This document shows positions 6,905-15,332 of a DNA stretch of 21,434 nucleotides, piece after piece. Both the position numbers and the translations under genes were made by a program. Below the pieces are notes generated by a model. It searched no databases. It saw only the letters and a list, made by a program, of their open reading frames with translations, and was not told where the DNA came from. The DNA is taken from assembly GCA_030998015.1 (NCBI GenBank), contig JARWMV010000197.1, forward strand, positions 1-21,434, written 5' to 3'. This stretch comes from Ceratorhiza oryzae-sativae (lineage: Eukaryota; Basidiomycota; Agaricomycetes; Cantharellales; Ceratobasidiaceae). The stretch's first letter is position 1. Each line of letters opens with the position of its first letter.

Positions 6905-7182
6905 AAAAAGCTTGCTCATCCTTAGGGTTTAAGCATAGCGAAGAGTCTTTATCTAAAATTAGAGCGCATCTTTCTAAACTAAATTTTGAAAAAGGTAACA
7001 AAGTCCGCCTCCTGGATCTCTAGAGATCCAGGGAGCGGAGTTACAGATATTGAAAAAAATACTGTAATTGTATATGATTCTACACGGCAAGCTGCTGAAG
7101 CTTTAAACTGTCATCATACAACTATAAAATACCACGATAAAAATAAGTTTAAGGGAAAACCTTTTAGAAATAAATATTTCAT
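6905..7182 (+). pseudogene. GIY-YIG endonuclease, C-terminal DNA-binding part
   Basis: Reads GFKHSEESLSKIRAHL (NUMOD3-type motif), then LNFEKGNKV, VTDIEKNTVIVYDSTRQAAE and ALNCHHTTIKYHDKNKFKGK (NUMOD1 helix-turn-helix). These modules bind DNA at the C-terminus of GIY-YIG homing enzymes. No GIY-YIG catalytic domain is next to it. An E hairpin (7005-7038) cuts the frame between NK and V, with AGT duplicated; removal restores GNKVTDI. It is embedded between the two ends of a LAGLIDADG_2 gene. Confidence 0.72.
7005..7038. mobile_element. E palindrome copy 3
   Basis: Identical 34 bp flanked by AGT (7002-7004 and 7039-7041). Removal gives N-K-V-T-D in the NUMOD region. Confidence 0.85.
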
Positions 7183-7430
7183 ACCCCCGCTTAGGGTCAA
7201 CCAGCATTGTATTTATATATAAATACATGCTGTTGACCCGTGGGTATGGTTATCGAGGCCGCGTTCGCGGCGAGGTATTGCGAGGTACCCTGGAACTTTC
7301 AGTTCCAGGGTACCTCGGAATCAGACGCCGCGCGCACGCCAGGGCCGCCTTGGCTTGATTATTGACCTTAAGGTCAATATGAGCCAAGCTTGCTTGGCTT
7401 AAGCCAAGGCGTTCGCAGGCGTGCACGGGT
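7183..7430 (+). mobile_element. B palindrome copy 3
   Basis: 248 bp with CAT duplicated (7180-7182 and 7431-7433) and internal TATG at 7245-7248. Contains the full set of inner hairpins, including the GGTACCCTGGAAC … GGGTACC stem and a GACCTTAAGGTC stem. Confidence 0.88.
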
Positions 7431-7842
7431 CATACACATTGGAAGAAGTTAAACTTCTACAAAAATCATTATTGGGTAATTTTAATATAGAAACCCGATT
7501 AATACTAAAACGGGAAAATCAGTGGTTAATATGTATTCCTGTAAAACAACAACCTATTCTTCGAGCTATTGTAACTCCCGCGCGCGTTAGTTGCTGGTGG
7601 GACTTGTCCCACCAACCAACGTGAGCAATCGCAACCGTTTGCGATTGCTAGTGCGCGGCATAATATCGATATTTAGCCGCCGGCTGAAAATGACGAACGG
7701 TCGTCATTTTCTACGAGGGAATCTTTATGGGAGGTAGCCTGGACCATGAGACTCATGGTCAAGGCTACCTCATCTGAGGATTCCCTCTAACGCCGGCGGG
7801 CATTCATCAATGCTATATAAAATATCTTCATCGTTAATTTAA
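7431..7842 (+). pseudogene. LAGLIDADG_2 endonuclease, C-terminal part, intron 2
   Basis: After the B element the frame reads YTLEEVKLLQKSLLGNF, NIETRLILKRENQWLICIP and PILRAIVTP. It is cut by a PAL-A copy (7578-7799) and ends HSSMLYKISSSLI with TAA 7840-7842. This is the normal C-terminus of the family. It cannot be joined to the N-terminal part at 6680-6798 because the middle, with motif 2, is absent. The remaining bases to exon 3 (7843-8078) hold intron sequence without a gene. Confidence 0.72.
7578..7799 (+). mobile_element. PAL-A copy 5 with a nested C hairpin
   Basis: 222 bp because a 50-bp C palindrome (GGAGGTAGCC … GGCTACCTC) fills the loop of the fifth hairpin. It splits the intron 2 LAGLIDADG tail between VTP and HSSM. 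Confidence 0.92.
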
Positions 7843-8078
7843 CTACCTTCTTCTTAAGAAATTTGATTTCATTGCACAGGTCCCTCAACCAATGACCCTA
7901 ATGCAGGTCCAGCAAGATTTTATAAATCTTGCATGGAAACAAGCCTATACTCCTTAGGCTTGCAACCCCTCCCCTTGTGGTTGGGAGTTACACCTAAGAT
8001 TTCAGCCGATAACCGGGGAGTTTATTTTTCCATGTTAGAAAAATTAAATGAATAAAGATTAAGGTCCGCTATTTCCCG

Positions 8079-8411
8079 TGGGAGGGTATTGGTATATCTT
8101 CATACTTACTGATTAACTTCTGGTTTACCAGAATTCAAGCTAATAAGTCTGCTATATTGGCTTTAACTATGAATAGAGTTGGTGATATGTTCTTAAGTAT
8201 TGGGTTCTTTGCTATATTCTGGCTATTTGGAAATATTGATTATGCCACAGTATTCAGTATTGCACCATATATGAATGAAACAGCTATAACAATAATAGGT
8301 TTATTGTTATTATTTGCTGCTATGGGAAAATCAGCCCAACTAGGTCTTAATACTTGGTTACCTCATTCAATGGAAGGTCCAACACCTGTTTCTGCTTTAC
8401 TGCATGCTGCT
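8079..8411 (+). CDS. nad5: nad5 exon 3
   Basis: Encodes 111 residues starting WEGIGISSYLLINFW, then LTMNRVGDMFLSIGFF, GKSAQLGLNTWLP and MEGPTPVSALLHAA. This is the conserved core of the antiporter-like fold, including the loop with the MEGPTPVSAL signature. Intron 2 ends in G8078. The 3' border is uncertain by one to three bases, because a codon for T (ACC) can be read from either side; I place it after GCT so that the exon ends in T. No insertions inside the exon. Confidence 0.93.
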
Positions 8412-8442
8412 ACCGAAAATTAAATTACAATATTTGTTTACT

Positions 8443-8565
8443 ACCCATGCCAAGACTTGCGCCACCCAAATTCGTCCTCTGACTCGAGCAAAGACGCAGT
8501 TGCCCATCCCTTTCACAGGTGGGAAGGGTGGATACCCTCCCACCTGTTATTGGGTCCAGGCAGGG
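8443..8565 (+). repeat. expanded F palindrome
   Basis: ACCCATGCCAAGACTTGCGCC … GTCCAGGCAGGG with an extra hairpin (CCTTTCACAGGTGGGAAGG … CCTCCCACCTG) inside. It starts about 30 bases into intron 3. Confidence 0.62.
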
Positions 8566-8933
8566 ATTATTTATAAATTAAGAATCTTTTAAAACTAGAG
8601 TCTGCGTACACTAACCCAATTTGCGACTCATATACACTTGAGTGCAGGAGGTTGTTTATCTCCATCTATTATTAACCGTTTTTTTTCTTAGCCCGTACAC
8701 TCTGGCAGGGTTCGGAATACTTGATACTATGCATTTGAAATTATATTTTTAGGATTAATACGGACCTTCAATGGTCACAAAATGTGTCTCAGCTTTCTTA
8801 CGTAGGCTATTGGCACAAGGGAAAAAAATAATTGCTATTTTTTTTAAGAAGAGGTTAAAGAAACAAACTTTCGCCTTTAACCCCTTCTAGGATTATTATT
8901 TGAGGGGCGTTCCGGAACCCTGTCGCAGCATGT

Positions 8934-9105
8934 CCGCGCGCGTTAGTTGCTGGTGGGACTTGTCCCACCAACCAACGTGAGCAATCGCAACCGTTTGCGA
9001 TTGCTAGTGCGCGGCATAATATCGATATTTAGCCGCCGGCTGAAAATGACGAACGGTCGTCATTTTCTACGAGGGAATCTTTAGGATTCCCTCTAACGCC
9101 GGCGG
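8934..9105 (+). mobile_element. PAL-A copy 6 inside an older palindrome
   Basis: Flanked by TGTCGCAGCATGT on the left and ACATGCTGCGACA on the right, exact reverse complements, so it sits at the centre of a host palindrome or of a longer element. The same arms flank copies R5 and R6. Confidence 0.92.
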
Positions 9106-9165
9106 ACATGCTGCGACACGGAACCAAAATTCCCATAAAAGAAGCAGATTTTTGGATTTAATCAT

Positions 9166-13729: not shown

Positions 13730-13933
13730 ACCCTAGTTACAGCTGGATGTTACTTACTTCTTAGATCATCCCCATTATTAGAATATAGTTCTACTGCACT
13801 ATTAGTAATCTTATGGGTAGGAGCCATAACAGCTTTCTTTGCTGCTTCTACTGGTCTATTGCAAAATGATTTAAAACGAATAATTGCGTTTAGTACTATT
13901 TCTCAAATGGGATATATTTTCTTAGCTGTTGGT
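13730..13933 (+). CDS. nad5: nad5 exon 4
   Basis: Encodes 68 residues: TLVTAGCYLLLRSSP, then VGAITAFFAASTGLLQ, NDLKRIIAFSTISQMGY and IFLAVG. It follows exon 3 (HAA) directly in NAD5 proteins, and the DLKRIIAFSTISQMG block is one of the best conserved in the family. The exon ends with GGT at 13931-13933, then intron 4. A family B palindrome ends only about 12 bases before this exon, very close to the 3' splice site. Confidence 0.94.
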
Positions 13934-13978
13934 TTGAAAATAGGCCCACATTAAATGCTATCAAATGCTTGAACCACC

Positions 13979-14124
13979 TTCCCTCCGCGCTCTTTGATCG
14001 CCCGCAGGGCGGCCTAAGCGCGGAGGGCTCCAATAATCGATGATTTGCGAAGGCAAATCTACACCCTGCCTAGAGAACTGCGCTTTAGCGCACGTCTTGG
14101 CAGGGGTATCGATTAGCGGGGTAA
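13979..14124 (-). mobile_element. F+G composite palindrome, copy 2
   Basis: Reverse copy of the 3406 composite, with the F part at 14063-14107. It lies between the P and Q words of the intron 4 core. Confidence 0.8.
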
Positions 14125-14348
14125 GGTAAATAAGCAGGCTTAAATACGCCTCAGAGACTAGAAATAGCAATAGACAAGTGTCTATGAGATATAGTCCGAG
14201 CAATTGTGAGAACAATTGAAATTTCCGCATATTCAATACTACCATAAAGGCGGTTACAGGGTATGCGGGTAACTTTCATCCCTGCATGGTCGCATGCCAT
14301 ACCGAGATTACATATAACATTAAGCATCGTCCTGAACGGAAAAGATTA

Positions 14349-14425
14349 TGACCCGTGCACGCCTGCGAACTGGCGTGCGCGCGGCGTCTGATTCCGAGGC
14401 AATACCTCGCCGCGAACGCGGCCTC
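14349..14425 (-). repeat. B palindrome, shortened copy
   Basis: Keeps the ends of the second half (ATGACCCGTGCACGCCTGCG, GATTCCGAGGC, CCGCGAACGCGGCCTC) and lacks the rest. The following 14426-14840 is GC-richer, structured sequence with no gene that I can name. Confidence 0.6.
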
Positions 14426-14846
14426 TTTTTTAGTTCATCCACCTTGTAATGAACTAAAAAGTAAGGCCAGGGCTTGTGCCAGGGTCTGTAAAAGAGAATC
14501 TAGTTGTGGTGAGCCCTGGGGTTAGAACGTACTCAGACCAAGGCTCTGCCAGTTAAGTTGGCACCCAGACCAACTGAAGTTTAACTACCCCACAGAATCG
14601 TCGCTTTGCGCTTAGATCATGACAGCACTGGCCAAATCGGACTCTTCGACAGGGTTAGGGTAGGAGTTCTCTAGAGAATGAAGAATGACTAAGCGGAGTC
14701 TTTTGACACCGTCGACGGTGACCCCCAATAATTGCAATGTCGCCATTGACCCCGGGTAAGATTTGCGAAGGCAAATCTACATCGATTCTCGAGGGTAATA
14801 AATCCTAGTTGTTTTCCCGACTCACGAGTCGGAACATGTCCGCCTC

Positions 14847-15068
14847 CCGCCGGCGTTAGAGGGAATCCTCAGATGAGGTAGCCTTGACCATGAGTCTCAT
14901 GGTCCAGGCTACCTCCCATAAAGATTCCCTCGTAGAAAATGACGACCGTTCGTCATTTTCAGCCGGCGGCTAAATATCGATATTATGCCGCGCACTAGCA
15001 ATCGCAAACGGTTGCGATTGCTCACGTTGGTTGGTGGGACAAGTCCCACCAGCAACTAACGCGCGCGG
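14847..15068 (-). mobile_element. PAL-A reverse copy R6 with a nested C hairpin
   Basis: 222 bp, near-identical to R5. Flanks AACATGTCCGCCT and ACATGCAGCGACAGG: degraded forms of the arms around copy 6. Confidence 0.92.
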
Positions 15069-15124
15069 ACATGCAGCGACAGGTATTTAGCATTAGAGAC
15101 TATCACTATACTTTAATTTAGTTG

Positions 15125-15329
15125 ACCCGTGCACGCCTGCGAACGCCCTGGCTTAAGCCAAGGCGGCCCTGGCGTGCGCGCGGCGTCTGATTCCGAGGTA
15201 CCCTGGAACTTAAAGTTCCAGGGTACCTCGCAATACCTCGCCGCGAACGCGGCCTCGATAACCAAACCCCTCGGGTCAACAGCATGTATTTATATATAAA
15301 TACAATGCTGGTTGACCCTAAGCGGGGGT
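15125..15329 (-). mobile_element. B palindrome copy with TTG target
   Basis: Flanked by TTG (15122-15124 and 15330-15332), not ATG. The internal arm reads CCAAACCCC at 15262-15270 where ATG-flanked copies read CCATACCC: it has changed to match the flank. Confidence 0.87.
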
Positions 15330-15332
15330 TTG

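Follow-up and report, generated by a model that had tools for sequence, protein, structure and literature searches.

A linker complementary to the left target tetramer, likely an inherited guide, in mitochondrial hairpin elements of Ceratorhiza oryzae-sativae

We analysed a 21,434-nt stretch of DNA from the basidiomycete Ceratorhiza oryzae-sativae, called the window below, which is one contig (JARWMV010000197.1, C197) of a 48.8-Mb assembly in 253 contigs (GCA_030998015.1), and followed a palindromic element, B, that is repeated in it and has no coding capacity of its own. Between its two hairpin groups B has a linker complementary to bases 2-4 of the left-hand host tetramer, and it is probable that this linker is an inherited guide that pairs with the target to choose the insertion site. 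We see an even chance that B is, more broadly, a non-coding mitochondrial transposon whose guide of 3-4 bases between the hairpin groups picks the tetramer and which has been re-addressed at least three times (TCAT to TCAA, TAAT and TCAC). The window is mitochondrial, since it contains nad5 exons, homing-endonuclease intron open reading frames (ORFs; LAGLIDADG and GIY-YIG-like, the GIY-YIG profile match scoring slightly under the curated cut-off) and one group I intron.

B is laid out as target, hairpin group 1, reverse complement of the target, hairpin group 2 and target again, an order that was described in an earlier sequence-only reading of the window and was found again in the extracted copies. 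The matched unit is a host tetramer of the form T-N-A-N, and the fifth base (A or G) belongs to the element. At the left border the tetramer is followed by this element base (A; G in the CATT class) and then by a C run; at the right border the tetramer comes directly after GGG. Behind hairpin group 1 comes the linker, which consists of GGG(G), then one of TATG, TAATG, TTTG, TGTG or CATT, then G; reverse-complementing its last three bases gives bases 2-4 of the left tetramer. Four tetramers were seen (TCAT, TCAA, TAAT and TCAC), usually with A as the next base. The window holds the following B sequences, where A is a companion hairpin family treated further below:

2162-2386, forward: B copy; left TCAT 2162-2165, element 2167-2382, guide ATGG 2243-2246, right TCAT 2383-2386.
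5329-5583, forward: B copy; left TCAT 5329-5332, guide ATGG 5396-5399, linker TATG, right end fused to a reversed A (B-A composite); the host ORF continues beyond the A element.
7179-7433, forward: B copy; left TCAT 7179-7182, element 7184-7429, guide ATGG 7246-7249, right TCAT 7430-7433.
9162-9416, forward: B copy; left TCAT 9162-9165, element 9167-9412, guide ATGG 9229-9232, right TCAT 9413-9416.
11280-11534, reverse: B copy; element 11284-11529, left tetramer 11531-11534, guide 11464-11467, right tetramer 11280-11283.
13507-13717, forward: B copy; left TCAT 13507-13510, element 13512-13713, guide ATGG 13574-13577, right TCAT 13714-13717.
14348-14426 (approximate end), reverse: B remnant; hairpin group 2 and right tetramer only, without group 1 or guide.
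15122-15333, reverse: B copy of the TCAA class; element 15126-15328, left tetramer 15330-15333, guide 15262-15265, right tetramer 15122-15125.
16477-16688, forward: B copy of the TAAT class; left end fused to A (A-B composite), guide ATTG 16600-16603, right TAAT 16685-16688.
17623-17709, forward: truncated B copy, read directly; left TCAT 17623-17626, guide ATGG 17692-17695, linker TATG, group 2 lost.
18540-18756, forward: B copy of the TAAT class; left TAAT 18540-18543, own G 18544, element 18545-18752, guide ATTG 18668-18671, right TAAT 18753-18756.

The copies named in the sequence-only reading were all recovered as described. Those with CATA at the left (2163, 7180, 9163, 13508 and, in reverse, 11531) had linker TATG and right CAT, the reverse copy at 15125-15332 had left CAAA, linker TTTG and right CAA, and the copy at 18541 had left AATG, linker CATT and right AAT. 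The copy at 16476 also showed linker CATT and right AAT, with its left end joined to an A element. Three B pieces of the window had been missed (5334-5583, 17623 and about 14348-14426).

Genome-wide, the B core gave 1460 exact matches (721 + 739), and none in viral contigs. B linkers were present on more than 20 contigs and identical flanks recurred across several of them, so only copies with distinct flank pairs were counted. From the sequence analysed, 52 such copies were extracted, leaving out those without a left C run, without a right end or short of flank. Dependent rows (copies 1, 3, 40 and 41 at the left; 3, 40 and 41 at the right) and ends joined to A were dropped. The left total of 53 consists of 37 extracted and 16 prospective ends, and the right total of 47 consists of 39 extracted ends and 8 new CATT ends.

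Bases 2-4 of the left tetramer were complementary to the last three linker bases in 51/53 distinct insertions, compared with a mean of 20.6 and a maximum of 34 (of 53) after shuffling. Sliding the pairing by 1-3 bases left only 0-1/53 matches, the linker neighbourhood of the 16 prospective ends being taken from the class spelling in this control. Within the extracted set, agreement with the linker was 35/37 at the left and 32/39 at the right, and 0/100000 label shuffles reached either value. Both variable tetramer positions (C/A and T/A/C) covaried between linker and left tetramer. The reverse complementarity of left flank and internal string had been claimed from the window, together with a proposal to look for covariation over all B copies of the genome; the survey bears the claim out and narrows it to bases 2-4 of a T-N-A-N tetramer.

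Left ends that were fetched once the linker was known agreed in 16/16 cases. A first round of 20 stretches picked by linker pattern (7 known, 2 duplicates and 1 without a B left end) gave 10/10 agreement among new distinct left ends, including C85:5521, which has 12 upstream bases in common with copy 6 and a different tetramer. The CATT class gave 6/6, with 2 further ends joined to A. Agreement at the right end was looser than at the left (37/47); among the new CATT right ends, 5/8 agreed and 3/8 were TCAT (20 stretches, 8 of them A-joined and 4 known). Left and right tetramers were equal in 26/31 copies with both ends. The first base of the left tetramer was T and the third A in 53/53, and the base after the right tetramer was A in 43/47, compared with 24-34% for such words in the sequence analysed. 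Four-letter linkers in which the invariant third A would face anything but T were sought with an exact pattern over the whole genome, with 0 matches. Linkers with a fourth base other than G numbered 498, and among the matches listed (about the first 100) all were CATT. Among GGG linkers that end in TG, 91 had a second base that was not A (85 TGTG and 6 TTTG).

The sequence-only reading had raised the concern that no empty site would show a target string present beforehand, and element-free paralogs bear on this. The paralog of copy 5 carries TCATA once (85% over 79 columns) and that of copy 42 carries TCAAA once (89% over 71 columns, one base missing just beyond). A GIY-YIG frame is split by copy 10, and the paralogous frame reads through with the tetramer once. 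For the window copy at 11284-11529, the flanks fuse to one open frame (..NLFNTYDSINKAK..; NTYDSINKA when joined) with a single tetramer, which is our own reading without an independent paralog. These comparisons show that the tetramer pre-existed in the host in the copies testable by empty site or reading frame. Pattern searches for the empty sites of copies 0, C86:34455 and 20 gave 0 matches each. As a side observation, the nad5 fragment at 8100-8420 of the window has metagenomic relatives (P0001, P0002 and P0004; the best ones 98-100% identical), one of which sits on a 22,984-base contig that could be a source of empty sites.

Two mechanisms had been offered for the layout: targeting by an internal guide, and snap-back copying, in which fold-back synthesis rewrites the linker from the target at each insertion and the complementarity is a scar. 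Snap-back copying would account at a single stroke for the match between both flanks and the linker, and it gives the layout as described. However, copies 2/3, 4, 5, 6 and 7 all carry the linker TAATG, one base longer than TCAT calls for, and it is unchanged at no fewer than five insertion sites that have different flanks and TCAT on both sides. Rewriting would have removed the extra base, so its persistence disfavours rewriting from the target. Among left ends of the CATT class, 11/11 had G as the fifth base, which pairs with the linker C, whereas the host base after the right TAAT was A in 14/15; this G does not copy the host A, and the G:C pair therefore comes from the element. In copy 42, both flanking tetramers are TCAA but the linker is TATG. 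The orientation of groups 1 and 2 was constant in 52 copies, a weak point against snap-back copying since extraction required that orientation. After this comparison of linker lineages rewriting was set aside, and we regard it as the least probable of the explanations weighed here. Of the two earlier proposals, the inherited internal guide fits best.

One 58-base group-1 body occurs with the guides TAATG, TATG and TTTG, so guides change while the body stays. This observation also bears on a different explanation, in which a lineage-specific nuclease sets the site and the linker match comes from the history of the lineages, or from the survival of those insertions in which the stem was completed, rather than from pairing at insertion. 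Linker classes are few and partly tied to body markers, and LAGLIDADG and GIY-YIG endonuclease ORFs are present, as this explanation would have it. It would nevertheless need chance complementarity at two variable positions and in four tetramer classes, and it sits poorly with one body carrying three guides; we consider it highly improbable. A search for reverse transcriptases gave matches on many contigs (150/811 candidates scored). Taken on the sequence comparisons, the linker is likely an inherited internal guide.

Single-strand folding was predicted with z values of -14 and -7. For the copy at 7179-7433, the predicted single-stranded DNA fold pairs CAT of the tetramer with ATG of the guide and closes hairpin group 1. 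For the copy at 18540, the whole tetramer is predicted to be paired (T facing G) along with three more upstream host bases. The host base directly outside the tetramer tended to be the complement of the next linker base: a host T faced A in 31/41 cases and a host A faced T in 7/11 (Fisher p 0.007 on A/T counts, copy 43 left out, rows partly dependent). Three GGGGTATG copies do not follow this, so an extension of the pairing to this host base is only suggestive. As we picture guide-directed insertion, the guide between the hairpin groups would pair with the host tetramer and so set the insertion site. The first T of the tetramer would face the invariant linker G as a G.T wobble, and four positions may pair. 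The same guide could pair with the right tetramer instead, which would enclose hairpin group 2. By analogy with IS200/IS605 elements, a nuclease or strand-transferase would cut the folded single strand 3' of the tetramer.

The predicted closure of hairpin group 1 by the left tetramer also suits another explanation. The tetramer would be part of the element's basal stem, insertion would proceed by identity, with the element bringing its own tetramer and recombining with the same string in the host (compare the overlap of tyrosine recombinases), and stem folding would be the only reason why linker and left arm remain complementary. That left and right tetramers are equal in most two-ended copies agrees with this, and the right TCAT of some CATT copies may be element-borne. 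The reading frames of copies 20 and C86:34455 speak against it. There the left TAAT gives residue N, as in most paralogs, and the right TCAT would give H; judged by frame, it is the guide and not the right end that the host tetramer fits. Inspection by eye gives a similar leaning for C86:50057 (NYYYDLFY and not NYDYDLFY, against the paralog motif NE[FL]YDLFY). A-B composites lack the left tetramer, yet among the 52 copies 6/8 CATT ones whose right flank is host sequence (copies 11 and 13-19) lie at TAAT, which would count against stem identity if they inserted as composites. The base outside the tetramer also leans to complementarity. Overall we judge insertion by stem identity to be unlikely.

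Several results weigh against an inherited guide. The right end disagreed with the guide in 10/47 cases, including 6/21 CATT copies that read TCAT. Two left ends disagreed (copies 42 and 43). A third miss would be copy 47, flanked by TCAATA at either border, had its register not been shifted by one base to give a left match. In copy 48 the frame gave a slight preference for the right tetramer being that of the host (most paralogs have Y, one has F). Three GGGGTATG copies had T and not A outside the tetramer. Only four tetramers and five linker spellings were seen, so independent guide changes are few (three or four). Redundancy in the assembly, its mitochondrial part included, is high, and chimeras are possible. 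Finally, the Y1 transposase profile (Pfam Y1_Tnp) gave 0 matches in the assembly, compared with matches in 5/14 control genomes, and the Y1-transposase protein route was dropped with no genome match.

Part of the disagreement may come from the history of the copies. Discordant copies 0, 1, 19 and 48 are best read as mosaics, because their hairpin group 2 resembles that of another class; copies 1 and 5 have the same left flank. Discordant copies 18, 42 and 43 were not accounted for in this way. The right tetramer may, as in IS200/IS605 elements, belong to the element's right end with no target duplication, and copies 20 and C86:34455 fit this. Alternatively it may be a true 4-bp target duplication, which copies 47 and 48 fit better. 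Another possible origin of the right TCAT in the discordant CATT copies is subsequent gene conversion by the numerous TCAT copies, which takes one base change.

The A family consists of two hairpin groups around the linker CATAATATCGATATTTAG and is present in the window at 377-555, 893-1062, 2620-2832, 4818-4990, 7579-7799 and further positions, with 85 distinct flank/length combinations in the sequence analysed. Its flanks showed no obvious direct repeat, and the A-family empty sites examined gave no clear rule. A and B are fused at fixed junctions (A followed by GCCCCCGCTC, GGGT followed by CCCGCCGG) at many sites, in the window at 5334-5757 and 16304-16684. These fusions look like composites moving as a whole, bounded by A on one side and B on the other, and beyond A the copies seem to have swapped flanks. 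Compared with their paralogs, composite copy 14 showed a join without gain or loss, the B-A composite at window position 5334 a join to within two bases, and composite L003 six bases fewer.

A further large palindromic family (CTCGAGAATGCATG...CGACGGTAT) was seen at about 10640-10845, 12487-12606 and 15585-15777 of the window, where 2/3 copies carry an extra hairpin in the loop. B copies with the TGTG guide (39-41) occupy a loop related to this family. At 8935-9110, an A element read directly lies between GTCGCAGCATGT and ACATGCTGCGAC, as in the loop of an earlier hairpin; hairpins therefore seem to nest in hairpin loops.

B is like the bacterial IS200/IS605 elements in its apparent working and not in membership, because no Y1 match was obtained in the assembly and the element is mitochondrial and non-coding. 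As described in the parts of PMC5934647 drawn on here, IS608 and ISDra2 pick their target by an internal tetranucleotide guide beside a hairpin and insert 3' to a short left-flank target, with a preferred following base (TTAC|C, about 70%, for IS608; TTGAT|G, about 90%, for ISDra2). Hairpin ends, a retained left target, an inherited guide and a preferred following base would be common to both. They differ in that B lies in eukaryotic mitochondrial DNA and has a single guide between two hairpin groups that could face both ends, with mostly equal tetramers on the two sides. Its pairing would be Watson-Crick at three positions plus G.T, whereas IS608 uses a complex base-pair set in the same account (PMC5934647).

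Repetitive extragenic palindromes (REP/BIME) served by TnpA-REP are likewise short, non-coding palindromes in which a tetranucleotide beside the stem helps to choose the cleavage site, according to the sections of PMC8266576 considered. Unlike B they are bacterial, are cleaved at CT/CA dinucleotides and depend on a Y1-type transposase, and those sections do not mention a repeated flanking tetramer. The statement of the sequence-only reading that no described palindromic element has this property was accordingly too strong, as IS200/IS605 and at least one REP element are described as using a tetranucleotide guide (PMC5934647, PMC8266576).

Hairpin elements are already known from mitochondria, some with short flanking repeats, to go by the portions of the literature consulted. 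B, with its predicted folds, has the tandem hairpins dispersed in mitochondrial DNA (mtDNA) that define double-hairpin elements. Those of Allomyces and Schizosaccharomyces and the repetitive hairpin elements of sponges are described in the same portions as scattered in mtDNA and thought mobile, as B would be. The Allomyces elements were reported without flanking duplications in the relevant part of PMC2800124, whereas B tetramers are mostly equal. Unlike B, neither the double-hairpin nor the sponge elements are described there with an internal complement of the target. The GC clusters of yeast mitochondria are described in corresponding excerpts with a short direct target repeat at both ends (AG/ACT, in place of the B tetramer), and the flanking repeat of B may be a true duplication. 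By those excerpts GC clusters differ in being much shorter (the commonest 42 nt), and no guide is described for them. The portions of the literature consulted, including PMC4478555, PMC7218506, PMC2800124, PMC10085805, PMC5934647 and PMC8266576, contained no account of a mitochondrial hairpin element with an internal linker complementary to its target.

How mitochondrial hairpin elements move, double-hairpin elements and GC clusters alike, is not settled in the literature so far as those portions go. A natural, apparently heritable and repeatedly re-spelt guide makes this movement testable. If the guide is real, B would be a case of guide-directed DNA integration in a eukaryotic organelle, and a principle known from bacteria, in which DNA-DNA pairing gives a transposon its address, would extend to such an organelle.

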